A DNA stretch of 64,000 nucleotides from Pezicula radicicola. Taxonomy: Eukaryota; Ascomycota; Leotiomycetes; Helotiales; Dermateaceae. Within the stretch, counting starts at the first letter, position 1; every line of letters starts with the position of its first letter. The DNA lies in contig PDUO01000020.1 in NCBI GenBank assembly GCA_003008705.1, forward strand, positions 746,817 to 810,816, read 5' to 3'. Both the position numbers and the translations under genes were made by a program. Below the pieces are notes generated by a model. The model made no database searches. It worked only from the letters and a program-made list of their open reading frames with translations, and had not been told where the DNA came from. Below, piece by piece: positions 14,900 to 43,043 of the stretch.

Positions 14900-16006
14900 A
14901 TGCCTCTCCCATCCGATGAACAGGTGGTGAAAACAGCACAAGAGTTGGTGTCCACATTCCAAGCAATATTGTAAGCAATCTATTTCTTTGTTCTCATGCC
15001 CTCGAAACACTGTCTTACGGCTCTGAGAGCATGTCTCAAAGTTCTTGCTCGTTGAGAAAGAAACAGTACTAATTTGTTGAAGTGGAAAACACCCTGGAAT
15101 AAGACCTGGTAAAATAAACTAGCCACCATCCTTCCCAACCTTTTCACAAATCGCACTAATATTCCAACAGCCCACGCAAAAGGAATCCTCCTAAACGGAA
15201 CCTTCACACCAACCACCAAAGCAGCAGAACTATCCAGCGCACCCCACTTCACACAATCCAGTACACCAATCCTCGTCCGTTTCTCCAACAGCACCGGTAT
15301 TCCCATAATCCCCGATACAGACCCCAATGCCGATCCACGCGGAATCGCCATCCGTTTCCAACTACCCTCAACACCCGATGGAAAAAGGGTCCACACAGAT
15401 ATAATCTCGCACTCAATCCCTTTCTTTCCAACTCGTACAGGTGCCGAATTTCTCGAATTCCTACACGCACTCATCGGTGGAACTATTGATGAATACCTCG
15501 GTTCTCATCCTGCTGCAGCTGCGTTTGTGACAGCTCCAAAACAAGCACCTAGTAGCTATGCTCGCGAACCATATTATAGTGTCACTGCATTCGCACTTGT
15601 TTCATCCACCGGCAAAAAGACTTTCATTCGATATCATATCCATCCTATTTTAGGACATGAAACTCTTTCGGCTGAAGAATTGAAGGAGAAGGAACCGAAT
15701 TTTTTGCAGACTGAGATTAAGGAACGGTTGGGGAAGGGTCCGGTGGAATTCAAATTGTTGGCGCAGGTTGCGGAGGAGGGTGATGTTACGGATGATTGTA
15801 CTGTTCATTGGCCTGATAGTAGAGAGGTTGTAGAATTGGGAACTGTGAGGATTGAAGGTGTTGAGAATGATGGTGACACTACGATGAAGGGTCTTATCTT
15901 TGATCCTATTCCGAGGGTTGAGGGTGTTGAACCGAGTGAGGATCCGTTGTTGGAGATGCGTGCTGCTATTTATTTGATTAGTGGGCGTGAGAGGAGAGCT
16001 GCTTGA
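14900..16006 (+). CDS. Small catalase-like heme protein (catalase-related peroxidase)
   Basis: A short member of the catalase superfamily (310 residues against 500 or more for true catalases), of the kind annotated as catalase-related peroxidase or SrpA-like. Exons are 14900-14970, 15083-15108 and 15171-16006; the second exon is only 26 bp. Seen: FGKHPGIRPAHAKG with the distal His, assembled across both introns. It is followed by LVRFSNSTG (the Asn-containing distal motif), DPRGIAIRF and, near the C-terminus, WPDSREVVELGTV, typical of the short form. No signal peptide is visible. Known short catalases are heme peroxidases; the substrate here is unknown. The first intron is an introner-like element (14971-15082). 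An alternative start is unlikely because the ATG directly precedes the conserved first exon. Confidence 0.85.
14971..15082 (+). repeat. Introner-like element, copy A (intron 1 of the catalase-like gene)
   Basis: A 112-bp intron starting GTAAGCAATC and ending ACTAATTTGTTGAAG, in phase 2. It is closely related to introns at 42522-42639 and 29556-29639, which sit in unrelated genes. Against copy B I count 11 mismatches over the first 80 ungapped bases, and the last 18 bases are identical. An imperfect stem can form: ttctca (14991-14996) with tgagaa, and tttct (14983-14987) with agaaa, within 15053-15063, leaving a 3-base bulge. Confidence 0.85.
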
Positions 16007-16235
16007 TTATTATTGGAGAAACTAACGCCCGTTACTGTCGTTTCAGATCCGGGTTAGTTGAGAGACCTGGAGATTTTGCAAACTGGCGAGCTTTATTTTA
16101 AGTTTTTTTTTTCGGAGCAAGGATGAGAATACATTGTGATATTGAGTATGCAGTTTTCAGAGCACTACATACATGGTATGCGGCCGGACTCTAATCTTCT
16201 AGCAGAAGCTTCTCTCAGGTGAGAGTTAGCAATTA

Positions 16236-17183
16236 CTACATGTACTTTCCAAAAAAGTCCAACAACATCTTGTAGCCTCGTGTGTATTCCTCTTTAACCC
16301 GGCTATCATCCAGGTTTGCCCTAAGACGGTTAGCATTTTGTTCTAATTTGCTAAACACTACTTTCGACCTAGGAAATCCACAGATAAAGAAAATAGAACT
16401 CTAAGTAGGTAGAGGTCCTATCCTGTGCAATGAATTCGCGAGAAAGAAGTATTGAAACTCACCTCGCAGCTAACCACCCATGAACCTGATCCCTAAATAT
16501 CTCCACAACCTTCTCGCCCTTCAAATTCCCTCCAAAAGCTTCCACATCATCTTTGACCTCATCGCCACTCGCTAGAATAGCAAACGGAATTTGAATATTC
16601 AAAGCATCACTCGGATCCAACATAGCCGGATGAACCTGAGCAGCAACTTTCCAAATAGTCTCCTTCCCAGCAGCGCCAAGAGTAACAACTTTTCCACCCC
16701 AACACACACCAAGAGCTCCCCATTCAACAATACTTTTAGAGATTTTCAACTCCTCAATAACGTTGGGGATTCGGGCAAGAGTAAGAGGCGGAGATGCTTT
16801 TGCTGCAAAGAATTCGCTGATTTTGGCTGGCCCTTCTACGGAATCGGGTGAGAACCATGATGGGTCCGCAGGTACGCCATCGAAGAAATCGGGAATGATG
16901 ACAAGATTTGGTGAGGTTTTGTTGGTGTGGGCTAGAATGTCGGCTCCTTGAAGAAGTTGGGGACTGAAGCCGAAGATGTCGTAGACAATGAGGATTGCTT
17001 TCTTGGCATCGGCTGGCCCAGTAATATCTTTTGAAACTTTCAGTTCGTGTATTTTAGTCGTGAGATAAAGAGAAATGACTTACAGGCTTTCATATTGGCG
17101 ATTTGAGAATATGAGCCTTTTGGCTTGTAGTCTTTTGCGACCACTGGGGGGATTGAACAGCAAGCGGATGATGGTTGAGACAT
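16236..17183 (-). CDS. Dienelactone hydrolase family protein
   Basis: An alpha/beta-hydrolase with a Cys-His-Asp triad; the founding enzymes open dienelactones in aromatic degradation, but fungal paralogues vary widely in substrate. Exons are 17183-17084, 17036-16463 and 16320-16236, giving 252 residues. Seen: the N-terminal CCSIPP segment, AILIVYDIFGF, the nucleophile motif GVCWGGK, the Asp region (ASGDEVKDD) and the His motif QVHGWLAAR just before the second intron. The short last exon encodes a typical amphipathic C-terminal helix ending LLDFFGKYM. A TATA-like run (about 17279-17287) lies roughly 100 bp upstream of the ATG. It is convergent with the catalase-like gene (229 bp between stops). 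Confidence 0.9.
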
Positions 17184-18343
17184 GTTTTTTTTTGTCGTTG
17201 AATTGATATTTAACTTGAATATGATGATTGTATTCTGTTTGAATTGAATTGGAAATTTTGAAGAGGAATCCAACATCATATATATACATCTCCATGTGAG
17301 CCAAGACTCTCAAACTAACTTTTCTACGCTACATCCTTTGGCGTTATTTCGAGGCCTCGAACTGTTAATCTCAGACTTAAACATGCGAAGAAAAGGAGAT
17401 AAATGGGGATAAGAGTGCTTTCTAATCTGAGATGGATTTCTGGCAGATATCTCCGTTGTTCTGTAGCCTCCGGTTTTCGCATCTATCGCTTCCGGTCTTC
17501 GGATTCGGTACCTTTACGTCATAATCTGCTTCGATCATAGCAAGTTGTTGTTTCTAACAAATTTCTGTTTACTTTTATTAATGTTAGCGACACCCATCGA
17601 AACGTGTTTAGCATATGTTTAAATTATACGATTCTTTGGGTGTCTTCTTCTTTCTAATTTACAAAATTACAGCCGCTTTCTCCTGAAACCAGAGACAACA
17701 CTGTCTCTAAATAATTTTGTACCTACTTGTAACTGTATTCAAGGACTTTATTCCTACTAAAGTGCCGGTTGAAAATCTGGGGTTTGGAATCTCAATAATT
17801 GAGCCATCAATGGTGAAAATAATGGTTCTATGACTAGGTTGTAAATGTAAAACTTGTGAACCTCAGAATAGTAAATTGGTCTACAGAGAGGGGGAAGTAC
17901 CACAATGGTATAGAAAAGTTTTAGAGGTAGTTGCTAAACAGCAGAGGCTGAACATGTATGTTTACGTTGTGAGTCTAGTTAAGCGATCTCAGCTCGCTAA
18001 CTGAGCCATTTATTTGTAAAAGGGGCGACTGTCGCATGACTGAAAATTCTATAGAACGTAGTGTACGTGACTATAAATAAGAGGATAATACCCACATATA
18101 GGCGTAGTAACCGCACTTGATTTGAGTAATCCACCTTACCCTCACATGACTAGAAATCTTGCGCCAGACTAACGCTTGAACTACAAATAGTTTTAGAAAT
18201 ATTTCTTTAATAGAATATAAGACCCCTTTTGCTGTTCATTCCTTACATTGTTGCTGCTTTGATAAGAACGATTCAATATTCATTATTATCAGCGGCAATA
18301 TTACCATCCTAGAGCCAGATACATTGCTAACACAAGACTATGG
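17184..18343. other. AT-rich intergenic region, nothing recognised
   Basis: About 1.2 kb without coding character. It marks the start of the gene-poor block that runs to about 38.9 kb. Confidence 0.5.
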
Positions 18344-20143
18344 TCAAACATTCTTCTTATCCGCCCCAGCATACAGATTTCCTGGTACAGGTTTCGAGAC
18401 CTCATAACTACTAAACCCACAATGCCCAACTTCCCCGCCTGAACCTTCCTGTATAACACCCCACTTTAGGGGTAGTAACGACGCCGATAAGTCTTCTGCA
18501 GGGTGTTTATGGCATGCAGCGGAAATTGCAGCACTGCAACTGCCAACTAACGGCATGCCAACAGGGTAACGACGGAACCCATTGATGATGCCACCAACCA
18601 CGGCTATACTGCCCACAACCAAGCCTGAAAATATCGCAATACATGAGTATCCGACCTTCGAGATGGAGTCATCAGTATCCAACTGCCCTGAATCATCATA
18701 CACTGTCACAAATGCTAAAAACAACGACTGTAACATAAGCCAATGAAGCATAGCTGACATGAGGAGTAGTGGCTGTTAAATAAGAATTAATCGCCTGAGA
18801 TAGTTTAGCTATAGATGAAGTAACTTACAAGGGCATATGTATAAGGCAGTTGAAGATAATATGTTGAACGTTGTTGCCCCCTTGGAGAAGTTACACGTAA
18901 AGCTTTCCGATGGTGTGCAAATTGGCTCCATTCACGGGCACCTAATACGCACGAGAATAGGCCGTTATAAGTCAGATAGAGAAATGAGAGAATGCCTTGT
19001 GGAAGATTTGCTAAAAGCACCATCGTAAGAAGATTAGTGATCTCAAGATTAACCACAGAATTCGCATGAATTGCCCCAAAACCTAGCTCATACATAGACT
19101 TAATGTTGGAAGTTCCGATGCCAATCATCCCTAGGTTTAGGAGCCATATCCCGACAGCTATAACTGATATACACCTATAGAGCATTAGCTTACAGTAGTG
19201 TTAGAAGGTAGATTTTCGTACAGAATATTACATGTAAACCACCGTTTCAAATTCGCTACCTTGAACCAAAAACTCCTCTTAGATATCCATGGTCTGGCAG
19301 CCTTTATTTTCCACTTATATATTTTTTTTGAGTATCCTCTTTGGTAGTTAGGCAAATCCCGACGGTTGTAGGATCTGGGCTATCAAGATACGAGGCTACG
19401 GCATCGCCAAGAGTAACCAGTGTTGGTGTTTTTAGCTTCCAAACAGTGAAAATCATCACAGTAGCCTTTACGATATTTGCTGCAATAACGACAAGCATAA
19501 TCATAAGACGAAAACTCAGGTGGCACTTTTTGACTACTGTTTCTATCATACAGTAGCTGATAGGATAATCGCCTACCTCCCAAGTCGACGCAGCCGCGGT
19601 TGCCTTGGATAATGTGCAGACCGGCTCCCTATCCGTGTAAGGCCTGCTATACCAATCATCACCGCATATCCAGTAATATGGGACTTCGTCATAAGAGCTC
19701 CAAGAATTAGAATACCTAACATCATTAGTGGCATTAACGTTTGTAGTAATAAGAAGAACATTCCGGACTTTACTAGTGAAATTGACCGCATACTGTGACA
19801 TGCAAGCGGTTGCGGTATGAATCAAAGCCATTGTCTTTGGAGATTAGTCGCTCTTGCACTTTTGGGTTCTTGGAAAAGTCGCTCAAGACCCAGCTACAAG
19901 TAAATTGTCAGTTACAGTTTGCCAAATCATAAAATTTTATACTTACGACCCTAGTTCATAGCTATCGTACTTGGAGTCTAACTGAGGCCGACTAGATGTG
20001 CTGTACTGCGATTGCCGATTGGAATTTTCACTCTGCGCGGTGTATTCCTGAAGAACATAAGGATTGACATTTGAAAAAGGCTGTTGATAGCCAATATCAC
20101 TTTCTTCTAAGGGCGTGTAAGCTGAATGATATTGCCATGCCAT
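18344..20143 (-). pseudogene. Broken DUF6536 membrane protein gene
   Basis: Similar to fungal multi-pass DUF6536 proteins (function unknown). The 3' part is well preserved: YLTYNGLFSCVL, FAHHRKALRVTSPRGQQRST and a clean intron (18773-18828), then PLVGSCSAAISAACH, LLPLKWGV and VGHCGFSSYEV. The middle part has PYYWICG, WEVGDYPISYC and LVTLGDAVASYL. Three defects are visible. The N-terminal transmembrane block, which normally carries a GWRTG-like motif, is absent between the first exon (20143-19947) and the next. The WVLSDF segment and the CMSQYAVNF segment are in different frames (break near 19835). The frame ending KEDTQKK in an A8 run near 19321 must shift by one base to continue into KAARPWISKRSFWF. 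Unrecognised introns cannot repair all of these, so I call it a pseudogene, although sequencing errors in homopolymers could explain part of it. Confidence 0.75.
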
Positions 20144-21163
20144 AATAACGTGAAACGGATAAGAAGTCGTCCTCCTACACCGATATACAGATTGCTTGTG
20201 TAATGCTGCAAGTTCAAATATGAGCACGCGACTACACCCGTAACTGACTTCATTGAATTCAGTTAGTGACTTGATATAAGTTGGATGACTGACTTGAGGA
20301 GCTTGTTTAGATTAAGTCAATTACTTCTTAGGTAGCTATTTATATTAATTAACTCACTTAATTAATGCAGCAGACCGGAGAAACCTACCAAGTAGCCTTC
20401 AGGCAAGACGCAGCCGAAGAATGCACTAATTGGATTACAGTTAGCACGTGGGTAGTGTACTTGGTGAAAGTAGGGGCGGGAATCATGTGCTTTTCTTTTT
20501 CTTGTCTTACTCTAGGTAAACTCTAAGTACGCATACCCTAGGCCGTAGGTGTTTTACTAGTGATCATCATAACCAAGTCTCCTTCAGTATCATGGAACAT
20601 ATCAGCGTTTGTGGTTGCTGAATGTGGAAAGATCAAGGGCTTTCAGAATTTTTCAATTATTTATCTGCAGTTAGGCCAAACCCTCGGTTTTTGGGCTGGC
20701 CATCGGGACACCGATTCGTCTACACGTATGGCTAGGCCATCTTATAGAGATTGAATTTGCTGGAGATCTAAGGTTTATGGCTTGGAGCTGAGAACTGATA
20801 ACTTTTAGGGGTCAGCATCGTGCTCCGAGGACTTGCAGGATTCGCTTGCATCCTGCTTCTAGTTTAGCGACGAACTTAGTAGACGACTAAGGAAGGCCAA
20901 GCTCAAGTCTAAAGTCTTTGGCATACTCCTCTGATTTGCAGTGTATTACTGCTAATCAGCAATGGCTGGAATGGGCTGAAAATGGCGCATATCATGTAAC
21001 ATTTCAACTCATACCACATTAGGTGCTTGTAACAAATATATTGAAAATCCCACAGTACTTAGTTACTGACACTAGTATCGTCCAAATTTCTCCCCAAAAG
21101 TGGAAATCAGTATGCCCCCCCCCACAACGCGGTCTGCATTTTATCTCAGCTAAATATGCTCCC
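20144..21163. other. AT-rich intergenic region
   Basis: No gene is supported. A copy of a dispersed AACTCACTTAA-type motif lies near 20348-20362. A run of nine C around 21116-21124 precedes the glycoprotein stop. Confidence 0.45.
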
Positions 21164-22403
21164 TTAATGTAATTCGTGCACAGGCTCATGCGCCACCTCA
21201 TGCATACCTACAGGATTTGTTGGAAACCCAGTGGGACTCGTCGGTGGAGAATATGGTGGAGCAATAACACTCATGCGGTCTGGATCGGAGCCAGCTGCAA
21301 CCGCATGAGAATTCAGCTGTGCTGTATTCTTTCCAGCATAAGGGTTCGAAGGGGTAACTGCAGACTCGTTTACTGGATGAGCAGAAGGCACAGCATGTGC
21401 TTGCCCGTAAGCATTTCCTTGATTCTCATATCCGGTTTGAACTCCCTGTGGGTTAATGCTTTGAGTGGCTGGGAATCTAGGATCGTAAGTGTTGTTGTTT
21501 GTCGACATTATTTCGGGGTGTTGAGGCGGGTTACGTCCGCCTTTGTTCCTCCTAAATAGGAAAAATGCCAATACTCCCAAGACACAAAGAAGTGCTAATC
21601 CTCCAATCGTGCCACCTACAATTGCTCCTATTGGTGTTTTCGGTTTAGGTGGAGGACTGGGAGTAGTTGGTAACGAGGGGGTTGTAATAGTTGGTGACGA
21701 AGGGATTGTAAAAGTTGGTGACGAGGAGGTTGTAGAAGTTGGTGACCAGTATGCGTTATAGATGTATAAAGTGCTCTGTGAAGTTGTTGCATTGTCATAT
21801 GTTGTGTAGTATGTCTCTTCTAAAAGATCGCCTGAGCTTCCACAGTCCCACGCAGTGGCAACATAGTCAAACTCGAAAGTCTCTGTAATACAGAGTGGTG
21901 CGGTAGCATCAGTACTAAGTGGCCATTCAGTCAAATGATGGCTTCTAGATTGATGCTAGATTTTATTTACCATGAAGTGACTAGCCAATTATCCAGGAAG
22001 GAGGATGCATAATGGCTCATAGCTGTGCTGTCGATACACGTAGTTGGCAGTGCACAATTATCAACACCTCGACCTATTGTTCTGCAGCATCCTGCGGCAC
22101 CGAACTCGTTTGTAGCGCAAACTGCACCACTGAGACAGTATATTGCGCCAGCTTTACAAATGTAAGTATCTCAAAATTTTGTGAATGGGTAAGAGGATTC
22201 TTACCCGAAGACTTTTGGTAGTATCCGCACGTAAAGTCACCAGGTTGCTGTCTTCTCCGTAGAGGTTTAGGAGCTGCCGTGGGCTGTAAGGGGATCTGAG
22301 TTGCAAGGTCATACTGCCCTTGCTTGGTAGGTTGAACACCATCCCAAGGTATACCGTATGTTGTGCCAATAATGGCAAGCAGGTAGAAGACAGTGGAAAG
22401 CAT
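21164..22403 (-). CDS. Type I membrane glycoprotein with Cys-rich ectodomain
   Basis: Exons are 22403-22205, 22151-21971 and 21941-21164, summing to 385 residues. The N-terminus is a signal peptide (MLSTVFYLLAIIGTTYG). A short Pro-rich stretch follows, then a Cys-rich region assembled across two introns (TCGYY, AIYCLSGAVC, GAAGCCRTI, TTCIDS). Next are a Ser/Thr/Pro-rich stalk, a single transmembrane helix at about residues 230-257 (PIGAIVGGTIGGLALL, then FFLFRRNK), and a Pro/Asn/Tyr-rich cytoplasmic tail. The architecture resembles fungal cell-surface sensor-like proteins of the WSC/Mid2 style, but I see no diagnostic domain. The last acceptor was chosen as CTAGAAG because the earlier AG would create an immediate stop; this splice is the least certain part. 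Confidence 0.72.
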
Positions 22404-25400
22404 TGTTAGAAACCTCAAAGTTGCATAGTATCACGGAGTTTTAAGAAATTTTGGAGAGAAACAAGAGGCTACTGGGCAAGTTATAAGATTTGGAACTGCC
22501 TTCCCAATTAATTTTCAACTGATAACTAGGCACAATTTGACGTATGATTCTTGGTAGGGCGATAAGACGCTTGTTAGTTTCGGTGTAGGAGTTTATTAGG
22601 AGGCTTACCAGCTGTGGCTTGCACTACTCAGGCCCATGCCATGGTCTGGATCTGTCTGCCAGAGCTAAACTGGATTACATAAGGTATATTCCGTATATCA
22701 TGCCACTCTGGTTTCATCGCGCAGGTCTAACTAACAGTACTACGACTTGACACAAAGCAGAACTCTTAGCAAACTGCACTTAAAACGCTTCTGTCTGCAA
22801 TAATAATACTATTTTGTGGTCTGTGCAAAGCTAGGTAACACCAATCTGCATGTGTGAGTAGGCGCATCTTAAGTAAAAACTGCACAGTAAAGTTAAGGCA
22901 CTTTTATAGGCGTTGAGACTTATGGCATAATTTTTGCGTTAGACAATCGGTTCCTGGATCTTCCACTGCAAATGTAATCCAAGATGTTCTGGTTCGAAAA
23001 GGCAATAGGTGTCAAATTGAGAAAATTAATACTAGGTTTCGTTGTTATAGCCATCTGAACAAGCTAACCTAGGGAGATGTGAACTTTCTTCAAGAGAGCT
23101 CTGATGTAGGTCTAATTGTAGGGGCACGATTACATGACCATTCCCTTTCAACAATTTGAGTAGCTCGCTTAATTTGAGTAGACTAGTATTTCTCAACGGC
23201 GGTTATAATAAATTAGCTCGGAGTCGTAACTTAAATTTATAGGGCCTAAAGTAGAACCTTGGGTGGTGGAGTCACCCACAGCAAGAGATTCTCAGGTAAA
23301 ACCATCCTCGTAGCCTTCTTCACTACCAAGAGCTTCACTCTAAATTAGTTGGTCAGAAAAATATTGCCTCGGGAGCCACTGTACTATTTAAATTCGAAAC
23401 CTATGGCTTTGGAATTGCTACAGGCATATCTGTCGTTTTATTTGGGAAGAGCACTTCCAAAGAAGAATACATATGCCTTGTTGGTGAGCGAGAAAGAAAT
23501 ATTTCAGGCTTCAGGGAAGAGAGTTTCTTCTGTGTTTTTGGGAATGCAGTTGATGGTGTTACAACTAACAACATTCTGGTGTCAAGGCTCGGGGTTAGGT
23601 AGCATATTATACTTGTGAGGGGATAGGCAAACAAACCTGATGCTAACCCTATCCCTTACACCGTTTCCTGTCATTTTGTACAGGGATTCGACACCCAGAG
23701 GATTTCGCCTCCAAAATATATATGAAATTTGTTGTGCACGTCCCGTTGGTCCGTGGGAATGGCAGCAAACGGTGCAAGGGATAGAGGGTTTTTTTTACCG
23801 TTCAGGGCTGAGAGGATGATAAAGCTACCATTCTTCACTTGAAGCCGCAAGAGGTAGTCGATAATGAAATTTAAAATGGAGCTTCCAGAATCCTTTCTCT
23901 CCTTTTATTTAAGACTGACCCTGGTGAGGAACTAGTAATATAACGAAATCACCACATTGATGGATACCCATAGTTCGATACTTGTATGGTATTTAAAATG
24001 GAAAGCTTTCATTGGAGGTTATAAGTCAGAGTTGAAGCTGTGGTTTGTGTGCGCCATCGAAAATACAAATCCTGATCCATTGCCTAGTTTTTGTTTGCAG
24101 GAAGCCTTTTCTTTGGAAACCTCTTATTTATAAGAGTCTTAAATTCCAAGTTTTCGGGAGAGGGTATAAGATCCCGATAGGTCGCTTGGCGCTTTGTCGG
24201 ACTTATCACTTAAGTGAGTTACTCAAATCAAAGTTAAGCAAGTTAGATAACTTTGAGTTTTTATAAGTTATCCAGACTAAGTGAGTGATTTAAACTACCT
24301 TAAGTTACTATGAGTCTACATGACCTGTTGTGTTATGAATGATCACGTGACAGCGTGACAGAAACCGCATGTAGATACACAAATTTCACACTATGGGCTC
24401 ATTTCAATCATTCAATTAAGATTAGCATATTCTTACAGTCCCAAGATTTATTTTCGTCTTTTTTTCAATATTTCTGTTACTTTCCTCTATCCTTGCTTCG
24501 TTATGACCAATACAATAACAGATAGACGAAACATCTCAGCAAACAAGACAAACAGCTCATGGGGATGTAACTCAGTGGTAGAGTGCCTCGTTTGCAAGCT
24601 TCTCAGCTTAAAAATCGATGAAGTCCAGGTTTCGATCACCTGCCTCTCCAATTTTTTTCCTACCTCAAACAACTTTGTAACCTGTACCACCGAGGGAATT
24701 TGAGTTGGATTTTCTTTTGGCTGGGGCTGATGCAACCTTTTTGAGCTTCACGAATCACCAGTGTTTGTTTGTGGTGGCTGAAAAGTTAGGCTGACGACAT
24801 TTTAGGCTTAGAATCCACTAAACCCCTTCGTTTGTACGCCACCCCCTTCGCTTACCAATTACCGAGCGGCAAAATTCGCTTACGAGCGCTAGAATCTTAC
24901 TCAGTCTATTTCTAAATCATTTTAGACTTTGGCAGTTCTGTGGTGAAGATTGGTGTAGTTTATTTTTAGATCTTGACATTTGTGTCTAGATGCTTGCGGT
25001 GCGGAAGGTACCTTAGGGCTGAGGCTTACTTTCGAAGTCTTCTATCAGCCATTTATGCAGAACAGCAAGGCTTTGTTGTACAAGGCTTGTTCACAGGATA
25101 CTTAGTTGTCGAATACATCATAGATGGTCTTAGTCTTAGGTGAGTTTTACGAGATTTAAGTGTAGTGAGTGACACAGCCTAACCTCACATCAGCAGCTGT
25201 TGCGGGGAAAACTTCAGCTATTGTTTAGCGAAGCGGTACTTAGGTCTCCCCATGTACTGTAGGAGAAATAACGGAGAATAAGCTTCCCCACACTTTTAGC
25301 ATTTTCCAAAAAGCTCTTCCTTACAGCCTACAAAATCGGCCTTCATAGATACAATTATAATTATAAATCTGCAAACTACAATCTGCAAACTACGAAATTG

Positions 25401-25838
25401 TCAAGCGAAGGATTCGAAGCTACTTCGTAGTTCACAGTAGTGTATTGAAAACCAATTATGTAGAAGTCAGACTTGTACAACGTGAAAATGGCTTGCAGGA
25501 AGCATATTTCTAGGCAGAATCGGTGATACAAGGCGTTATACAAAGCAGCATAGTAAACGTAATAAGACTTTGGTAGTCAGTCAGCTCCTTGGCAACAGGC
25601 TGAGTATAATCTCATCATTTACGAGAACAAACTCTCAGCTCCATTCATAATTCTCTTGACTACTCTTCTAAAAATCTATATAAACCGTCCTCACTCCCGT
25701 CAAAAAGTCCATTCCATTCAGCATCAACTCGAGCACTTCAAAAAAAAACTCCCCATGCTACCAACTATCTAATCAATCCAAACAACTTCTTAATTCTTTA
25801 ATCTAATACAACTTCAAGTCAAATCAAAATCCCTCAAA
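22404..25838. other. Long gene-poor stretch containing one tRNA-like locus
   Basis: About 3.4 kb of AT-rich DNA. Apart from the tRNA-like locus at 24561-24650 I see no gene. The frames at 23349-23618 and 24045-24266 have no features. Copies of a dispersed TTTGAGTAACTCACTTAA-like motif lie at about 23153-23180 and 24207-24228. Confidence 0.5.
24561..24650 (+). tRNA. tRNA-Ala (UGC)-like gene with an intron, possibly decayed
   Basis: Folds by eye as a tRNA. The acceptor GGGGATG pairs with CCTCTCC (one mismatch; the G3-U70 pair that identifies tRNA-Ala is kept). The D arm is ACTC/GAGT, the anticodon stem CCTCG is followed by loop TTTGCA (anticodon TGC), and the T arm CAGGT-TTCGATC-ACCTG is perfect. 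The anticodon stem only closes (one mismatch) if about 18 bases after the anticodon are an intron. A T7 run directly follows and could terminate Pol III. The A-box and B-box deviate from consensus and two stem mismatches exist, so this may be a tRNA pseudogene. Confidence 0.5.
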
Positions 25839-26921: not shown

Positions 26922-29900
26922 TCACGTCTGGTAAGATTTGGCGTCCGACAAGGACGGCATGCGAGGCTTCGGGTTTGGACCCAGATGTTGAATTTCCACT
27001 ATTTTGACATCGCGATTCTTCTCGATAAGTCGACCCCTCATATCGTCATCGACTGCGCCTTCACTTCCCAACCACTTTTTCATAATCCAGTATACAATGA
27101 ATATAGTGACGCCGCTGACAAGGCTTATTGACACAAGAATGCTGACAACTAGGAAGGCAGCGTCAGGTAGTTGAACTGTACAGAGCGAGATGCGTCTGCC
27201 CGTAAAGGGGGAGTTAGCAATTACTTCTTCTGTAGGGTATTTGGAGTTGTTGCTCCCGAGACATGTCTCGAGAGAAAACGTCTTGAAAGGGGATATTTCA
27301 AGAGGAACTCCTCTTAAAATACTCTAGAATAGGAATGAAAGTGCTCCCCCCATACGTACTGGATATCGACAAAGCCGGTGACAAAGGCGATTATGGAGAG
27401 GAGTAGGAGAAGACTGAGGATGATGAAACGTAAAGGCTTGAGATTTTTGCCAACTGGGGTTTCAAGTGCGGCGGCTATGAACAAGACAATTGTGGTCACG
27501 AGACCAATGATACCATGAGGTGTGATGAAGTGAGAAGCAGAACCGAGGAGGACGACCTGCATAGTGTTAGTTAGCATACGGACTGTAATACATGAAGATA
27601 CTTACCCCGAGGATGAAGCCAACAATAGCCAGAGGAAGGACGCCCAAGGCCCAGATGAAAGTTTTCCATCGCGGTGCATTAAGTAACTTCTGTGGCCTGA
27701 CGATGAGGACTGCAATAGCATGACCATATTCGAGAGAGAGTGCCAAAGGAATGAACACGAAGTAGGCGAGAATGACAAGGAAAGCTATCGTATGGGTATT
27801 AGCAAAAGAAGTACATGTTATCAAGGATATACGCACCATGAAAAACGATCAAAAGAGTGAGTTTATTTATAGTGAGCCCGTTAACGAAAATGCCGAAGTT
27901 TTTGGGGTCAATAACAAACTTGTTGCCGCCACTAAAGAGAGTGAAAGTGGCGTTTGGCAAAATTCCAGGTGGAAGGGTGGTGGTTGTGGGGAGTGAGCCG
28001 CTTGATTTTAAACCCGCGAAGATCTGTGAAGCTCCTCCCACTCCCTCACAAGTTAGAGAGTCAACTCCTTTCTGTTGCACGAGATTTTTAGTAAAAAATC
28101 ATCATAGCTGGAAAGAAAAATTAACCATGCTTTATTTCTTACCTGGAGAACAGAGTTCACGTCAGAGCTGTTTATACTGGCAAATATACCTGAGAGGTCT
28201 ATTGCGCGCTTTCGGACAATGGATTTCTTACCAGGTTCAAGGCCACGTTTGGGAAGATGTGCTTTGTTGCCAGGAGCCAAGCTGCGGGCTGCTACCGTAG
28301 AGAGATTACCGGTCGTTTCTGGTGGCGCTGGTACTGCATCTGGGGTTGTTGATGGTGCTGGCGCTGTTTTCTTTCCGATCGCTATTAAGACCACATTGAC
28401 ACCTTCCGCACCTAATCCATACCCAAAGCCAGTGGCGGCGCCGCTAACCGAATCATTGAATCCGCTCGAATCTCCAAAGATACTGCTTGAGGTGCTCATG
28501 GCATTCTCGACCTTGCTAGTTCCAAGGATCGCCTGCACACCACCAGCATTATTGATGCTAGCTCCGGCGCCATCAATGAATCCTCGCGCTGCTCCTTCAG
28601 CGACCTGACTAATGCTAAGAGACGATAGGGAAAATGATGACCCCGCAGAGAAATTGCTTGCAGCTTTTTGGATTTGGGCGACTGTGTCGTTGGCAAGGAA
28701 GCTACTTGTAAGCCCATAGGTGAAATCACGAGCTACCATTGCAACATCTCCGCCGGATGCTGTGTTTGAAGCAGCCTGTTGCAGACCAAGACCAACCGCC
28801 ACACCTTGTCCAATACCGCTGCCTGCACCCTGTGCCGCTGGGCCAATCATAGCTGTCACATTGGTCATGCCAGCGCTCTTGAGTGCCTTGCTTAGTCCAT
28901 CTACTGTTCCGTTGGCGAGGAAGCTTGTTGTGAGTTGGTAGGCGAAGTTCTTTCCTACGGTTGATGCATCGGCATCCGCTGATATCACCGATGCAACCTC
29001 AGACTGGAGACCCAAGCCTACAGCTGCGCCTGACCCGAAACCAGAACCAGCTCCAACAAGAGCCGGTGTGATCATACCAGTAATATTGCTCATACTACCA
29101 GAGGCACTTGAGACCAGCTTGCTGACATCGACGGACCCAAGGAAAGAAGAAGATAGAGACTTTGTGAAATCATAAGCAACCGAGGCGATATCGATGGACG
29201 AGTTAGCTGTGCCAGTGGAACTAACGGCGGCAGTGCTAGTAGTTGCAGCTCTTTTTGCAATGGTTGCAGCTGGTAGTTTGAGTCCCTGCGCAGCGCCTTC
29301 GCCCAATCCTGTGTCCTGTTAGTATACGTTACTCAAATATGACTCTTGAATGCTTACCTTTGCCGGCATTTGTGATGGCAGATACCACTTGAGTCCCGCT
29401 GATCCCGGTCATAAGAGATGAAAGAGAAGCTGACTTGAAGAAGGAGGACGTGAGTCCATTTCCCAAATTCCCAGCGATCAGAGCAACGCCGGTTTGATTT
29501 CCAACTGGAACTGCAGTGGTATTGAGATTCAGACCAGTAGCAGCACCACCGCCCACTTCAATGAGTTAGTCTTAGAGCAAGGGTAATAGCCATGAAACAG
29601 TATTTCGAGAGAACGAGGGCAAAGAAATGTATTGCTTACAACCGGCCCCAAGCGCATTGGCGGCATCACCTAGTGACCCTCCGGACGTAAGTGTGCTTAG
29701 GTTCAGTGATCCAGTCAAACCATTTGCTACACTACATATTACGAATGTTAGTAAAGGTCGATATTAAAAGCAACAGCCCATACGAAAATACTACATACCC
29801 AAACCCGAGGTTGTCTGCAATGGCATTAAGACCAGTCGGTTTTTGTGCGGAAGTTACGGCATTATTAGTGACCTTCAACCCAGCAGTTACGCCTCGTCCC

Positions 29901-34734: not shown

Positions 34735-36060
34735 TCAATAAGTCAAAACTCTATCGACCTTATTTATCTCTGGTTTTCCATCAGCAAGGCGTTCCAAGTT
34801 ATAGTCCAAAATGGCAAGCACGCGCTCCATATAGTGACTAGAGTGACCACTCGTATGAGGAGTGATAATAAGGTTAGGAGCCTTCCACAACGGATGATCT
34901 TTGGGCAATGGCTCTGGATCCGTAACATCGAGAGCAGCGCCACGAATTTGGTTCGTCTCTAGAGCCGTAATCAAGTCGGCAGTATTGACGTGGGGTCCTC
35001 TTCCAATATTCGAGAGGAAAGTTTTCTTCTTAGACAAGATCTGGAACCTAAATTATCCGCGAGTTAACAACTTCCTAATTTGCCAAGTTTCAAGAGATTG
35101 AGGATATCAGATGAAGCTAATTAAGATCTGGGGCAGGAAGATAAGAAAGTAAGCGTTCTTACTGCTCTGCTGCGATCATGTTTCGAGTGATGCTAGTCAA
35201 TGGGAGACAGATGACAAGGATATCAAGATCTTGTGCGAGGAAATTATTCAAATCTTCCTTGGTAGTCCCATGAAACCACTTAGACGGGAAAACGCCTTCA
35301 GGGTCTCCGGTTCCCGGAACGCAGTAACTGTCGTCTTTTCTCGATTCTGGAGTTGATCTTTCTCGCATCGTATAGGCCACAACATCCATCGCCATAGCCT
35401 TTGCAATTCTGGCACATTGACGACCAATAGCTCCATAACCCAAAATACCCCTTTGCGAACTCGTTAGTCTGGAGATACATAGAATGGTCGAGGACGAATT
35501 TTACATTCTCAAGCCCGGAGCATCCTCGACGCCAAGCATGTCATCAGTCACCCAGTCCCCCGTCTCCATAGCCTTCAGATACCGAGGAAAACGATGCTGA
35601 AACATCAGAAAGGTAGTAATGACCCATTCAGCAATCTGTGGCCTAGATACTAAAAATCAACAATTCAATCCGTATTATCCGTCAACCATTGAAAGGAGGG
35701 AGTGAGCAAGACTAACGGATGAACACCATTCGCTGTACAAAAAGCAATATCCGTATCCTCATACAGCGGATTCCCATGTAGATGATTAGCACCCGCGGAA
35801 GATAACTGCACATATTCCAACTTGGGAGCTTGTTCTTTCTTTGGAAATACGTTGTATGAACAAAGTGCCGTTACATTCTCCCAGAGCTCTGCTGGGACTT
35901 CTGTGTCTCCCTGGAATCTCAATTGATGATATACAATTTCTAAACCCGTGTACTTGGCTCTAAGCTTTTCGAGGTATTCTTTTGGTGGATTTTGCGATCT
36001 TGCGATTACGAGTTTGTGTCCTGCTAAAGTTGGATTGACCTCGTGGGTTGTTTTGGACAT
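34735..36060 (-). CDS. D-isomer-specific 2-hydroxyacid dehydrogenase
   Basis: An NAD(P)-dependent oxidoreductase of the family that includes glyoxylate/hydroxypyruvate reductase and D-lactate dehydrogenase. Exons are 36060-35717, 35642-35505, 35450-35163 and 35047-34735, giving 360 residues. Seen: an N-terminal flavodoxin-like part with SSAGANHLHGN; PPQIAEWVITTF restored across intron 1; the nucleotide-binding GYGAIGRQCAR; and the catalytic triad regions NIGRGPHV (Arg), DVTDPEPLP (Glu) and TPHTSGHS (His). All three catalytic residues are present. Acceptor choices were set by reading phase: the first intron must end at TATCTAG, because the earlier AG gives a stop. The exact substrate cannot be told. 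Confidence 0.9.
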
Positions 36061-37219
36061 CTTTGGTTTAAGGTAAGGTAAGTAAGTAAGATAAGTGCCC
36101 CTGTTAATACCGCTTATTTTGTTGCTCTTCTCTTGGTGATGGGTTTAGAGCCTTTAGGGTAGGATAACAGGTAGAGTTTTCATAGGTTAAAGGATGAAGA
36201 AATTTCTAAGTTTCTTTCTTCTTAATTTCTCTCCTTCTCCCACCTTTAATTTCCTCGAGAAGCTTATTAATGAGTCAATGATAAAGCAAGAGTGGGGATT
36301 TACCCTATGGCGCAAGAGGAAACATCTCGCACGTGACGCAGAAATGGAAGACTTTCCTTCTGGCGAAATATCGGGACTGAGTTTGAATGAGAGCTTGTTA
36401 GCATTTAACTTAAGCCTGATAAGTGAAGTCTTTGTTGTTTACAAATCCTCTAGATAGAGTGAGTAGCTTACAGTTGTTCCTTCTAAGGTTATAGCTATCC
36501 AAATTAGTGACTTATGACTTCCAAATACAAATAGACATAGTACGAATCTACATAGAGTAAGAGTGCTAGTGTACTGGCCCTCTAATAAACGTCTAGAATA
36601 GCAATCTTAAGCTACAGTCAGAACGTCCAATCCTCTAGTATAAACACTTTCGGCTTCTCGTATATTATATAGAGAGGAATCTCTAAAGGCTTTTGACTTC
36701 TTCCCTTTTAGAATTTAGTATCTACCTACATTCCTTTGACTGCTTCTGCTTCTAAACGTAAGCAACATTACACTTACAATACTCTAATTACTTTCCAATC
36801 ACCTTTAGTTCACTATAGAGAGAAGTAATATTCTTAAGTGGACTTTAATATATGCTTGGTAATCAACACCTAGTTACAGAATGTTACAATTCTAAGCTCC
36901 CGGCATATATAAAAGCTACTAAAGCTTGATATAACTAAGCCTATAACTTTAGTCTAGGTCCGACCTCGATATAATTCCTTCCTACTACTTTTACTAACAG
37001 AAAGGTACTTTACAAAGTAGGTAAAAGAAAAATTAAACAATGACAACACTATACTACCTAACAACTAACAAGTGAATTCGTCGAAGCCTTTAGATTCGCA
37101 ATAGGACCTTTCCTAAACCCTGGATCTACACTCTGTGTCGTAATATCTCTGACATGAACGTGTCTAGCTTTTATAGTGTGGGCTCCTAGCTGGTCTTGTC
37201 GTGTTACCGACATTATTAT
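36061..37219. other. AT-rich intergenic region
   Basis: About 1.2 kb of AT-rich DNA upstream of the dehydrogenase and next to the palindromic element. The frame at 36194-36457 has no recognisable content. No further feature is supported. Confidence 0.4.
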
Positions 37220-37224
37220 AAACC

Positions 37225-38368
37225 TGTTGCCAAATCTGGTATTACTAAAATAGGCTACTCCGAGCTATTACTACAATAGGAAATACCCTACCCCCCCAGC
37301 CTACAGATGTATATATATACTACCTCTAGACCTTACTTTATTCTACAATCGAGTCCATTTCTACTTTCTAATATGTTGCTAATAGCAGAATATATTGACG
37401 AATATATGGATCGGAAGTCAAGAGATAGTTGCTTGATTCTATATAGGTAGTAAAATGAGAGTATATATACACAAACGAGAGTGAGTAATTGCTAATGCCG
37501 AAACAGCTTGCATAGCATCGGAGAAACAGTCTTCTTGTATGTGAAACGCTTAGAAATCAACTGTCTGACTAATGCCATAGGCTCGTCTATAGCATGAACT
37601 GAATATGAACCATATTTATGGTTTCTGAACGAGTGGCAATACTGTTATATTTGGCAACACACCCCCTCAGGTTTTATACAGAGTAGAGAACCTGAATAGT
37701 ATAACCTGTAACCGCTAAATCTATGCCCTTAAATCCTACTCCTCCTTCCCCTACAGCCCGTATATATATATATCCGTCGTGTATCGAAGAGAAGGGAGGT
37801 TTGTCGTATATATACGTAGGCAGGGTGGCGCAGAGAGAGGCTTTTCGTGTATTTCGTGTACAAGCAGAGGTACAGAGAGATGTATGACGTCTAGATAAGT
37901 GAATGTGACAGTCATTGGTGTATTTATGTACAGGCAGAGGTACAGAGAGGCTTGTTGTATACGAACAGAGGCGTAGAGAGAGGCGTATTGTATATAGACA
38001 GAGGCGTAGATAGAGAGCCTTATTGTAATATAGACAGAGGCGTAGTGAGGGGCTTGTTGTATATAGATAAAGGTATGTTATTTATGTCGAGGTACTCCTA
38101 CTACTTTAATGTTTGTAAGAGTAGGTGGTAGAGCTCGACGTCGAATACAATACTCTTAAGAGTAAGGGAATCGAGTAGGGATGTCGGAAATCCTAGGTCG
38201 GAAGTCCCGGGCTCATAACTATTAGAAAGTAGAAATGGACTCGATTGTAGAATAAAGTAAGGTCTAGAGGTAGTATATATATANATCTGTAGGCTGGGGG
38301 GGTAGGGTATTTCCTATTGTAGTAATAGCTCGGAGTAGCCTATTTTAGTAATACCAGATTTGGCAACA
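37225..38368. mobile_element. Mobile element with identical 149-bp inverted ends and 5-bp target duplication
   Basis: Left end 37225-37373 and right end 38220-38368 are exact reverse complements over 149 bp, apart from one ambiguous base (N at 38284, predicted C from the left arm). The element begins TGTTGCCAAATCTGG and ends CCAGATTTGGCAACA, and is flanked by the direct repeat AAACC (37220-37224 and 38369-38373). Inside, 37225-37659 itself starts TGTTGCCAAAT and ends ATTTGGCAACA, i.e. a 435-bp TG...CA unit with 11-bp inverted ends, like a retrotransposon LTR. The interior also carries tandem repeats. No transposase or reverse transcriptase frame is present, so it is non-autonomous. Confidence 0.82.
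37800..38075. repeat. Degenerate tandem repeats inside the mobile element
   Basis: About seven imperfect units of roughly 30-40 bp built on a core like acagaggcgtagagagaggc followed by ttgttgtatata. The best-preserved units lie between 37930 and 38070; they differ by small indels and substitutions. They carry no coding content. Confidence 0.65.
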
Positions 38369-38373
38369 AAACC

Positions 38374-38892
38374 TAGGTGAATAAAATTAATGTACATTAA
38401 CCTAAAGAGTCCCTTTTAGTATTAAGTAGTACACATAAAGCAAGCCTAAACACTACCCTAACAAAAAATCTATTAATACAGTGCCTAACCAGATCACTAT
38501 AACGATAAGACCCGTCTATTTGAATTATAATAAGACTAAACTAGTTATCCTGTAAGCACTTAGGACTTGTCTCGTAGATGCTTGTGACTCTTCTATACAT
38601 CCCCCTGCGGGCTTTGAACTATTCAAGCTACTTATCTATAGAAAATATAAAATGTTCTATTAATACAGTTACTGCCACATGATTAGCTGTATAATATATA
38701 TTTCTTCGAGCCTAAAATTAGCCATGCAGGATGTAAGGCCTTTTACTTAGATAACCTACTTCAGCTAGGTAGTCTACTTATCTAATTTGAGTAACTCACT
38801 TGATTTTCCTGTATTTGATTCGAAGCTTGTACTACCTCCATTAATTCAACTCGTTTCCGAGAAAATAATCTCTTAGCTAAACTTCACTCTGT
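38374..38892. other. AT-rich intergenic region
   Basis: AT-rich spacer between the mobile element and the end of the sugar transporter gene. It contains a copy of the dispersed ATTTGAGTAACTCACTTGA motif at about 38784-38804. Confidence 0.4.
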
Positions 38893-40866
38893 TCAAACCG
38901 CAACCTCCTTAGCACTCACCCCCTTCTCATTCTCCCCATCTCCCTCACCATCCCCGCCATCCCTACCCTCTAAAACCTCAACCCCAACCCCAACTCCAGT
39001 CATCTGTCTAATCTCCAGTCCCACCTTAACATCAACATCTCCCCTGATAACAGCAAGCAACGGAGGAGCAGAAGAATGCATATCCCCATCAATAAGTTCA
39101 TCAATCTCCTCCAGGGTCTTCTGACTAGTTTCAACCCAATAGAAAATAATGAAGAGGACTTCTAGGACATCCCAGGAGGCGTTTATCATGTATGTTTTCC
39201 AGCCGATGGCTTCAAGAGCATAGGGGAAAGCGAATGTTACTACGGTTCTAGTGGACGGGGGTTGTTAGGTTTTGAGTGATGGGGTTGGAGGGAAGGAGGG
39301 AATGAGGAAGGAAAACTTACGCGGCGCCGTTCGATAAAAATGTGTAGATTGACATGCCGTTTCCACGAAGGGAGAAATTGAGGACTTCAGGTGGATACAT
39401 AACTAGTAATGTACTCCAGCCAAAAGCATAAATACCTAAAATTCATCAGTACATCAGCAATATACCCTCAACTACTAGAGTATAAAAAGGTAGCTTACCT
39501 TGATAAAGAAAGATACAAGCAACAGTGCCATAAACACCGGATTTGTTTTCTCCTGAGCCATAGACTTCGTTTCTGTTAGTCGAGAATATTATAGTAGGTA
39601 AGTTTGGTAAGTAGGTGAATTAGAAGAACTTACGCTTGGTAAATGCTCCCGCTAGGAACAAGAAAATAAGTGATATACTAAGACTTCCAGCACCTAATCG
39701 TTTACGGCCGATTTTATCGGCGAGAGATGTACCGAGTATAGCTGTGAAGAGACACCACACAGATAGATAGATATTGATTTCTAGTTGTGTCGTAGTGTTC
39801 GTAATTCCGGCTTGAGTGAGCATAGTTCCGAGGTAATACCTTTGACATTAATCAGTTCCAATTCTCAGTATCAATACAGAAGAAAGGAAGGAGTAAACCT
39901 ACGAAATAATCCCACTCCCACTCATGTTCCCAAAGATAGCACAAGAACAAGCCAATAGCATCCTCTTTCGAGTCTGCGGAGTCTCAAAAGCATCCAACCA
40001 ATTCTGACTAGGCTTATGAGCCTTCTCAAAAGCAATAGTATCAGCAATCTGATGATATTGCGTTATAACAACTGCATCACTGATGTCTCCATCAGCAGAC
40101 ATAATAGCAAGGACTTCAAGAGCCTCATCATGTCGATCTTGATACATTAACCAACGTGGGGATTCCGGGATGAATGGTACGATGACCAAGCATAGAAGAC
40201 TTGGAACAACCTGAAGCATCGATGGGATTCTCCAAGCCCAAGAACTCACTATCTTGGCTGTTCCGTAAGTAACTCCTGAAGCTATCATTCCACCGCCGTA
40301 CCAAAAGTCGTAGTAGAAACCGAGGGAGAAGGCTCGCCATTTTAATTGGGCTACTTCGGATATGTAGGTTGGGCAGGCGACTGAACTGACTCCAACTCCA
40401 ATGCCGACTATGAGACGTCCTACGAGGAACATGGCTGGGTTTTGAGCTGCAGATTGAAGTATGATTCCAATCACTGTTACGAGTACTGCACCTGCCATTC
40501 CTGCTTTTCGACCCCATTTATCAATAATCCAACCGGAGAACAAACCAGCGACACATCCTCCGACCCAGATGATTCCTGTGTTGGCCGACTCGCCGGCTGT
40601 GTTCAAATTGATCTCATTATAAAACGAGGGTAGAATGTTTAGACCGTTCCTGCTAAGTTTAGCCACCACTTCCACTAAGATAGTACTGTTTGACAAAAGA
40701 AAGATAGTCCACAGAATTAAGTGGTCGCTTCTTACATCATGTTACCATCGTACCCCATTGTCATCGAATTAACGAGACAAGCAAGAACAGTGAGCACAAC
40801 TAGACCAACTGAGCTTCGAGGGACCCAACGCCCAACATGCGAATTGATGGGCGACCTGACCGCCAT
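38893..40866 (-). CDS. MFS sugar transporter (sugar porter family)
   Basis: A plasma-membrane proton-coupled uptake carrier for a sugar or related compound. Six exons: 40866-40736, 40649-39903, 39839-39634, 39564-39499, 39435-39321 and 39247-38893, giving 539 residues, the usual length with about 12 membrane helices. Seen: MTMGYDGNMM in helix 1; the loop motif DKWGRKAG after helix 2; GRLIVGIGVGVSS; the central PESPRWLMYQ; a second DKIGRKRLG loop; and a hydrophilic acidic Gly-rich tail. The helix-10/11 region is rebuilt across short exons (YGSGENKSGVYGTVAC, FGWSTLLVMYPPEVL). I prefer the ATG at 40866 (MAVRSPINSH) to one 69 bp upstream. It is divergent from the PhyH dioxygenase; it resembles lactose-permease-type fungal carriers, but the substrate is unknown. 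Confidence 0.9.
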
Positions 40867-41887
40867 TGTCAAAGAGTTTGAGGATAAAAAACAGGAGGAG
40901 TGAGAACAGAATGAAGGGAGTAAGGAAATTCTCATGTACTCTACTTTATAGAATATCTCAGGAGATCGAAATCCATCGAGGAGTTAAAACCCGCAATGGA
41001 AGCCGTATGCAAGTCCCATGCAAGCAACCCGAAATACTACGCCTTAATTATCTTGAAGATAAGCAAAATAAAGATATGGAAACTAGACAAACCTTTAACA
41101 GCCATCTTCAAGTGCCTTTCTGCCACCATGAAACAGTTAGATATGGAATGATACCCCATCTTCACAGTTATATAAGATGGGATGTTGGATTGGAGAAAGG
41201 ATACCTACCAAGCTAGTCCTATTATAGCTGGCCAATGGAGAACTAGGCCTTTTTAAGCGTACTGTACTAGGAACAGGGCCGTTGGCTCTGTCGTTATCCG
41301 GAGGTGTGGAGCAATTCCCGGACCATGTTAACGCAAGTTGCCTGGAGCATGGAGAACTAAGCCCTTTTGGTTTGAGGTACATAAATCAATTGCCGGTGGA
41401 AGCGAGCTCTTCGGCAATCTGCCTATCTACAAGTAGCTTTTGCTGGCCTATAGCAGATTCCATATTGCGAACTCTTGAGCACATGTCAAGGACTCAAGGA
41501 GTTCTAATTATGATGCTCGATAGAAGTTCAGCAACTGGAACAAATTTCCTAGTCTGGTAGTGAGGGCGAGAGTTTCTGCCGAACAGAGTGATGAACACCA
41601 GGCGCATATCTTCCCTATGGTCCTGCCAATCATCCACAAAACGCAGTTGCTTAGAGTAAGTAAAATAGCCACAGAGGAGCTGCTACATGGTGGATGATCA
41701 TGTGGCTGCATGCCAATGGCTGTAGCCAAAGGACCCATTCGTGGGATAGCTACCTCATGGAAGATAAATACCGAAGTCTGCTGGCCCTCCGCAACCTACT
41801 ATGTCTGATCGTTATCAAACGCTCTTGAACAAAGTTTTTGAAAATCCTCATATCGTTCTACAAGATTTCATCCAATTCAATCTAAAA
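40867..41887. promoter_or_regulatory. Divergent promoter region, transporter / PhyH dioxygenase
   Basis: A 1.0-kb spacer separating two divergent genes. It contains an inverted CGG triplet pair, CGG-N16-CCG at 41299-41320, embedded in a tccgg/ccgga palindrome. Zn2Cys6 factors typically bind such pairs, and one is encoded 3 kb away. No convincing gene lies in the spacer. Confidence 0.3.
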
Positions 41888-43043
41888 ATGGCTCCATCGG
41901 CAATCGATCCTGTTCCACTGACCGAGAAATCCACCAAGGACGAACCCAAGATCGAACGTTTCGATGCTAAAGACCCCAAAACAACCTGCGAAGCGCTCGT
42001 GGAAGTCCTGAAGCGAGATGGTGGTGTCATCGTCGAAAACCTCATCAGCACCGAGCTCGCAGCCCAAATCAAAGGAGAATTGAAACCCTACTTTGACACT
42101 GATCGTATTGACAAGACTGGCTTCTTTCCGGAGACTACTCAACGAGCTTCAGGCCTCATAAGTATATCCGAAGGTTGTATTGATTACCTGACAACGCCAC
42201 TGCTGATCGAGGTCGCCGATGCTATACTTTCCTCTACTTACAGCTTCTGGATCGGCGAAAAACTCAGAACGGTGACGTCTAAGCCTCAAATCTCGTCAAC
42301 AGTAGGATTTCGAGTCAACCCAGGCGGAAGACAACAGGCATTACACAGAGATGATTCGTTGGTGGCCCCCTCAACATTTTCCTTAAGATCGATTTTAACG
42401 TATTAATAGTGACTACCATACGCGCAACGTCGACTTCCCGGTATTACTTGGCTGTGTCGCAGCATTAACTAAGACTACCAAAGAAAACGGTGCCACGGTA
42501 GTTATTCCTGGCTCGCATACAGTAAGCAACATATTTCTTTGTTCTCATGGTCTCGAAACACTGTCTCACGACTCAGGGAGCATGTCTCAAGGCTCTTACT
42601 CTTACTCTTTGGAAAAAACATAGTACTAATTTGTTGAAGTGGGGCCCAGAAAGGGCACCCAAGGAGCACGAGGCTATCCCCGCAGAGCTAGAAATTGGCA
42701 GCGCTCTCATTTTCTTTGGAAACACCTACCACGCTGGTGGCAAGAATACTACAACGTTCGTGATCTACTGGTTGTATCCTGAGGTAAAATCAAACTGACA
42801 TTTCCAATCGCGTACAGGGACTCGGTGAGAGAGACTGTTGGATTGTTTTTGACAAAAGGCTACTACCGTCAAGCGGAAAATCAGTACCTCATGGTGCCGG
42901 TCGAAAAGGCCCGTGGAATGTCGACCCAGGTGAAAAGGTTACTTGGATACGGAATTAGTCCTCCAGGTATGGGCTTTTATGAGTACCAGGATCCCATGAG
43001 AGTTCTCTATGGTGTGGAGGATGACGAGACTGTAGAGCTCTGA
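41888..43043 (+). CDS. PhyH-type Fe(II)/2-oxoglutarate dioxygenase
   Basis: A phytanoyl-CoA dioxygenase-like enzyme; fungal members hydroxylate, desaturate or endoperoxidise small molecules and are common in secondary metabolism. Exons are 41888-42357, 42410-42521, 42640-42755 and 42818-43043, giving 307 residues. Seen: an N-terminal DGGVIVENLIS element, the iron-binding HRDD (His-x-Asp) motif, TKENGATVVIPGSHT, the distal iron His in TYHAGG, and a C-terminal block with GFYEYQDPMRVLYG. Both iron ligands are present. Intron 1 uses a GTTGGT donor and intron 3 a GTTCGT donor, chosen by phase; intron 2 is an introner-like element. An in-frame ATG exists 87 bp upstream of the chosen start. The gene converges on the Zn2Cys6 regulator. 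Confidence 0.87.
42522..42639 (+). repeat. Introner-like element, copy B (intron 2 of the PhyH gene)
   Basis: A 118-bp intron, phase 0, starting GTAAGCAACA and ending AGTACTAATTTGTTGAAG. It splits the conserved GSHT|WGPERAP motif exactly. It is nearly identical to copy A in the catalase-like gene: the last 18 bases match perfectly and 69 of the first 80 match. Confidence 0.85.

Follow-up and report, generated by a model that had tools for sequence, protein, structure and literature searches.

How do closely related introns come to lie in unrelated genes? The question is raised by a 64,000-nucleotide stretch of the genome of the fungus Pezicula radicicola (contig PDUO01000020.1, positions 746,817–810,816 of the forward strand), referred to below as the window. 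Three such introns are present in it: copy A (positions 14971–15082 of the window, plus strand, 112 nt, phase 2) inside a catalase-like gene, copy B (42522–42639, plus strand, 118 nt, phase 0) inside a PhyH dioxygenase gene, and copy C (29556–29639, minus strand, 84 nt, phase 1), which is shortened and diverged and lies inside a Gly/Ala-rich gene. The re-reading of the window sequence bore out the positions, strands and phases given in an initial annotation, as well as the common ends claimed there: all three introns begin with GTAAGCAA and finish with TTGAAG, with ACTAA shortly upstream of the 3′ end. As that annotation had also stated, copies A and B share 69 of their initial 80 positions and all of the last 18, and the kinship extends from end to end, with local alignment identities of 99/110 (A–B), 61/82 (A–C) and 60/81 (B–C). 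None of 1000 shuffles preserving both ends scored as high for any pair. As a DNA query, copy C matched itself only; a profile of the family recovered it with 39 bits (E 1.7e-10). We conclude that the three introns are very probably copies of a fungal introner-like element, that is, short GT-AG spliceosomal introns that multiply seamlessly into coding exons.

The three host genes differ in family and phase, and the exclusion of a common ancestral intron proposed in the annotation was upheld. The removal of copy A joins QAIF to GKHPG, and the spliced protein matches the Pfam family Catalase; the protein hosting copy B matches Pfam PhyH. Both labels stood, but the label "b561-like" for the copy C gene was not confirmed, and the one neighbouring open reading frame of this gene that was scanned (28056–29306) matched no Pfam family. 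The ten scanned host proteins of the family to which the trio belongs (family 1) gave nine different families (catalase, PhyH dioxygenase, amino-acid permease, PhoD phosphatase, an RCC1-like match, MFS transporter, tannase, arylsulfotransferase and TPMT) and one protein without a family. The inheritance of one intron by paralogous hosts has large transporter families among these hosts in its favour. Its probability is nevertheless negligible, as host families and phases differ, the flanks cannot be aligned, and the intron is missing from six paralogs of the permease host described below.

The assembly containing the window (61.0 Mb, 152 contigs) was searched, as the annotation had proposed, and a dispersed family was found. 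Copy A gave 67 candidates; all 40 that were scored match, 34 of them over positions 1–112. The family-1 5′-end pattern had 124 matches against 9 for the reversed control, and the 3′-end pattern had 72 against 11. We read 68 distinct copies first and 16 later (n = 84). The closest ones differ by one mismatch in 118 bases, and copy B has one mismatch to each of two others, at loci L009 and L003. A large family had been deduced from three copies in 64 kb. The family indeed numbers roughly a hundred-odd copies, but the trio is a local cluster, because only ~0.13 copies are expected per 64 kb from the 5′-end pattern count. The family-1 copies are longer than the ordinary introns of the same loci: 63 of the 84 measure 112–122 nt, while among 28 introns predicted in the fetched loci, within a permitted range of 45–130 nt, 21 measure 46–75 nt and four of the others are copies of a second family. 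Some copies carry additional sequence. At L030 (1501–1642), a copy is extended to 142 nt by a TTACTC microsatellite, and at L049 (405 nt) and L034 (208 nt), both on the minus strand, and L111 (212 nt), the extra sequence lies between the 5′ and 3′ parts.

The boundaries of the copies are exact. In most of 30 loci, the likeness begins at GT and ends at AG, although the 3′ end is shifted in some family-1 copies (e.g., TTGATAG). Flanking stretches of 1300 bases beside 49 copies revealed no shared longer element, such as a dispersed transposon; of 37 cross-matches between flanks, the best 15 were self-overlaps of loci, family-2 introns, and one 175-base repeat away from the copies. The last is a stretch shared with 86% identity by the flanks of the unrelated loci L061 and L003, possibly another repeat or intron family. 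In 68 family-1 copies, the left and right flanks agreed no better than shuffled flanks at any length from 1 to 10, and there is therefore no sign of a target-site duplication, which we regard as ruled out for this family. Judged from the restored reading frames, the copies are probably removed by splicing. The [D1,2] structure of a stwintron was not found, as the excision of single GT-AG units already restores the frame.

Empty sites were sought among paralogs and homologues of the hosts. A search of the same genome with the permease-host protein gave 50 matches, two of which were the host itself. Six paralogs spanning the site were fetched; all six are uninterrupted there, and five have TGG at this point. 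In the PhyH host, all 120 homologues listed of 293 carry the tryptophan (Trp) that follows the intron, with no gap before it. The Trp at the site was likewise matched without a gap in all alignments printed for the hosts M1 aminopeptidase (4), GH53 galactanase (4) and PhoD (2), as was the Gln at the site of an enoyl-CoA hydratase host in the three alignments printed; in an aminopeptidase-P host, the site Gln is aligned with Pro, also without a gap. Because of these gapless matches and the uninterrupted permease paralogs, the insertion site appears to predate the intron in the hosts so compared, and the conserved residues and the empty sites argue against TGG as a part of the element. The introner reading is supported by the dispersed copies, their exact bounds, the restored frames, the lack of duplications, the empty paralog sites, target codons older than the introns, the youth of pairs with a single mismatch, and an excess of in-frame Trp codons at the cut.

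The comparison of the predicted introns of the fetched loci among themselves revealed a second introner family in this genome, which is new. Its members start with GTAAGTCTC, finish near CTCCGAGTTTCTGATTTATAG and are mostly 126–131 nt long. The genome search gave 162 candidates, and all 40 that were scored match; 31 copies were read, followed by 8 more. The family-1 profile had no match in 20 family-2 loci, and a scan of the window with the family-2 profile found no copy. The families also differ in their ends. In family 2, an inverted repeat, CTCGGAGT, lies near the termini, from position 15–16 at each end, and shuffled ends equal its score in 18 of 1000 cases; shuffled ends do as well as those of family 1 in 371 of 1000, so that family 1 has no clear terminal inverted repeat. 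The predicted RNA fold of the single family-2 copy tested had a z of −2.69. Both families occur together in the gene at L028, presumably an M1 aminopeptidase according to its motifs, where two copies of family 1 are joined by at least two of family 2. In the reverse complement of this minus-strand locus (680–931), a family-2 and a family-1 intron are separated by a one-base exon, the T of an ATG codon. On the minus strand of L012, whose host we take from its motifs to be a short-chain dehydrogenase, two family-1 copies lie ~340 bp apart in one gene.

The exon downstream of all three window copies starts with TGG, a feature absent from the initial annotation. Next to copy A (15083–15085, plus strand), it is out of frame, in the codons TTT GGA, and next to copy C (29553–29555, minus strand), it is also out of frame, in TTG GGC. 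Next to copy B (42640–42642, plus strand), it is in frame according to the homologue alignments, so that a Trp codon stands at the cut in one of the three. Across family 1, TGG opens the exon in 41 of the 84 copies, and a G seldom stands directly upstream of the intron (10% of the first 68).

To place these sites in codons, frames were called from the codon usage of the flanks with the codon at the cut excluded, and a frame was taken as clear when it led the next sense frame by at least 3 bits. This was so in 81 of 84 family-1 and in all 31 of the first family-2 copies. In the called frames, the cut splits or borders on a Trp codon in 36/81 family-1 and 13/37 family-2 copies, while Trp makes up 1.8% of codons. 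Where TGG touches or spans the cut, it is read in frame in 36 of 48 family-1 cases (p 8e-12 against the 27% found in host open reading frames) and in 13 of 14 family-2 cases, or 13 of 18 with the later eight copies (p 9e-5), giving 49/66 for both families. The cuts at Trp codons in family 2 are spread over the three phases (3, 5 and 5 copies). CAA cut after its C is likewise in frame, in 8/9 family-1 and 2/2 family-2 cases. At the 112 sites called without the last eight copies, Trp occurs 49 times (24 times its frequency), Gln 11, Met 9, His 6 and Cys 5 times, and Lys and Arg do not occur. These five residues are the rarest in the host open reading frames, and they alone exceed a twofold enrichment at the cut. 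In agreement with the bias, the 16 family-1 copies read later have TGG in frame in 5 of 6 cases, although no prediction had been made for them in advance. In a small control, one of 24 predicted introns outside family 2 abuts Trp. Insertion sites that follow the reading frame, with an excess of Trp codons, are a new finding.

Simpler descriptions of the bias were considered as well. A preference for the first Trp codon is ruled out, as Trp is equally dense on either side of 24 sites (0.0161 upstream, 0.0164 downstream), and an amino-acid context around the target Trp was likewise rejected, with a lowest p of 0.009 in 240 tests. A flank motif handed from donor to copy may explain TGG. On a tree of the 75 of 84 family-1 copies measuring 85–145 nt, the TGG class is clustered, with 15 changes against 25 in shuffles, a number that none of 500 shuffles reached. 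Part of this clustering comes from an older-looking TTGATAG subclade (support 83/91), where TGG is missing in 11 of 12 copies. CAA cut after C requires 6 changes for 8 copies, which 16 of 500 shuffles equal or undercut.

As to how the copies spread, the moving form would most likely be the excised intron RNA. It would enter a transcript, or else the transcribed strand of a gene, before being fixed in DNA, the return step being deduced. Spread via intron RNA is likely, and this route fits because the copies are placed in coding frames and lack duplications. A non-autonomous DNA transposon carrying both splice sites, the introner type of many algae and protists, would account for the near-terminal inverted repeat CTCGGAGT of family 2, and target motifs are common in DNA transposition. 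We consider it very unlikely, as family 1 has neither a target-site duplication nor a clear terminal inverted repeat, and a transposase acting on DNA would have no known means to sense the reading frame. An RNA route blind to the frame is quite possible, though we do not favour it. By this route, introns would be reverse-spliced into transcripts or R-loops, or their RNA would be ligated into double-strand breaks, at a TGG-like motif. It accounts for seamless insertion, follows a model discussed for other fungal elements in the available parts of PMC8469720 and PMC12403724, and agrees with the clear nucleotide bias of the right flank (TGG in the 41 family-1 copies mentioned). It agrees also with the last eight family-2 copies, in which TGG cut after its second base recurs out of frame (0/4 called in frame). 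The in-frame proportions of TGG, and of CAA cut after C (10/11 in both families), speak against it. So do the counts of Trp: a model blind to the frame and built from the four bases at the cut predicts 13.8 and 2.9, while even the frames of the longest open reading frames, which give fewer Trp, yield 33/84 and 9/31.

It is rather doubtful that the in-frame Trp excess reflects selection after insertion or a sampling effect instead of targeting. The batches of copies were picked by likeness to one query, the excess is missing in the older family-2 copies, and TGG is missing in the 11 of 12 members of the older-looking family-1 subclade. Yet it is already found in young copies, with 10 of 16 members of the starred young family-1 clade at Trp, and no fitness reason for a Trp codon was found. 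Codon-phase selection alone is contradicted by the opposite phases of the two motifs, as TGG following the cut favours phase 0 and CAA cut after C favours phase 1. The dependence of the target on the reading frame is not accounted for by known models. A coupling of insertion to translation is possible but unproven. In one form of it, ribosomes would stall where the codon calls for a scarce amino acid (Trp first, then Met, Gln, Cys and His), the mRNA would be cut in their decoding site, and the excised intron RNA would be joined into it, the product then being copied back to DNA. Excised linear introns persist in starved yeast. We hold this form unlikely. All five enriched residues have codons with TG or CA, and rarity is indistinguishable here from a taste for these dinucleotides; in the accessible part of one paper, the ribosome-linked cut is mapped 8 bases upstream of the P site, which does not fit the decoding site.

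Several observations weigh against the reading of the copies as introners that spread via RNA and follow the frame. A prediction fixed beforehand failed on the last eight family-2 copies, with Trp in 0 of 6 called frames and TGG in frame in 0 of 4. One of the two uncalled copies would be at Trp in its second-best frame, and the eight resemble the query less closely (81–87% identity). The frame calls also presuppose a sense placement: with antisense frames scored as well, the sense frame of the longest open reading frame is ahead of each of the other five, by a margin above 3 bits, in no more than 58/84 family-1 and 24/31 family-2 copies, and in 10/84 and 3/31 the top score falls to an antisense frame. 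Splicing is judged from restored frames. The six permease paralogs are old (33–41% identical), come from the same genome and stand in for relatives. The RNA of family 1 folds no better than shuffles in all 5 copies tested (z −0.21 to 0.77). Read after the fact, the Trp bias may be confined to recently active lineages, because the family-2 copies without the excess and the TGG-poor family-1 subclade are both more diverged.

The counts should be read with the following in mind. The choice of batches by similarity to one query makes the sampling non-random, and the longest-frame and codon-usage calls differ in 9/84 family-1 and 5/31 family-2 copies. Boundaries were set by hand in 16 family-1 copies, one L028 copy and 11 family-2 copies. 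Four of the 20 later family-1 loci (L112, L121, L127 and L128) had no usable copy and were dropped before counting, and two weak family-2 matches of 13 (L028 1257–1338 and L020) were not used. For one L028 copy, the codon was tallied as GTG with the adjacent intron retained; the true codon is ATG. At L038, the codon-usage frame conflicts with the protein: the long open reading frame contains a stretch, RTKQTARRSTGGKAPRKQLASKAP, which we take to be very like a histone H3 tail, and the family-1 intron splits a Gln codon of this stretch.

As for the surroundings in the window, exon 1 of the PhyH host gene is placed at 41888–42357 and exon 2, which runs up to the introner, at 42410–42521, both inferred and on the plus strand. 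In the frame matching the protein family, the last intron of this gene (42783–42817) gives no canonical GT-AG pair. The best named homologues of the COG6 protein of the window include those of Phlyctema, Coleophoma, Cudoniella and Mollisia (79–81% identity), all of them Leotiomycetes, which agrees with the class of this fungus, a Leotiomycete and not a Dothideomycete.

The findings bear on how introners spread in fungi. A frame-dependent target, if true, would count against the models blind to the frame (DNA transposition, reverse splicing and break repair) and would place insertion at the level of translated RNA; the placement at Trp codons hints that the cell's reading of its genes may help choose the landing sites of new introns. 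The in-frame Trp excess is a simple signature that can be counted in other genomes. Even without the frame signal, this genome holds two introner families, one of them with ~99% identical copies. Among the matches listed from the open-licence literature, titles and abstract openings mention no Trp-codon bias of introner or intron gain, and the word "introner" is missing for Helotiales and Leotiomycetes; the accessible main text of PMC9860276 names neither group. RNA routes are discussed for other fungi in excerpts of PMC8469720, PMC12403724 and PMC9860276, and frame dependence is unexpected from them. The same portions of the two stwintron papers (PMC8469720, PMC12403724) report no exon bias at insertion sites; one of the two cites earlier work in which other fungal elements preferred AG/GY sites and codon phases, and a frame effect of some kind may therefore already have been observed.

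Among known systems, the introners moved as DNA transposons share with family 1 the similarity up to the splice boundaries, but family 1 has no target-site duplication and no clear terminal inverted repeat; ascomycete introners are described as having neither duplications nor terminal repeats (PMC9860276, in part). The sister stwintrons and cropped sister introns of Hypoxylaceae and Xylariaceae also enter new positions seamlessly and without target-site duplication, and their short near-terminal inverted repeats resemble those of family 2 (PMC8469720 and PMC12403724, in part); stwintrons are nested pairs, however, whereas families 1 and 2 are single introns. A stable RNA fold, reported for other fungal introner-like elements, was not seen in family 1, but it does not belong to the definition of these elements in the available text of PMC4457414. 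According to the same text, the introner-like elements of Fulvia fulva, Zymoseptoria tritici and their relatives are likewise near-identical spliceosomal introns in unrelated genes, exceed ordinary introns in length, form several families per genome and may occur two per gene. Unlike elements of the Fulvia/Zymoseptoria type, those described here occur in a Leotiomycete host and show an excess of in-frame Trp codons at their insertion sites, and family-1 copies rarely follow a G.

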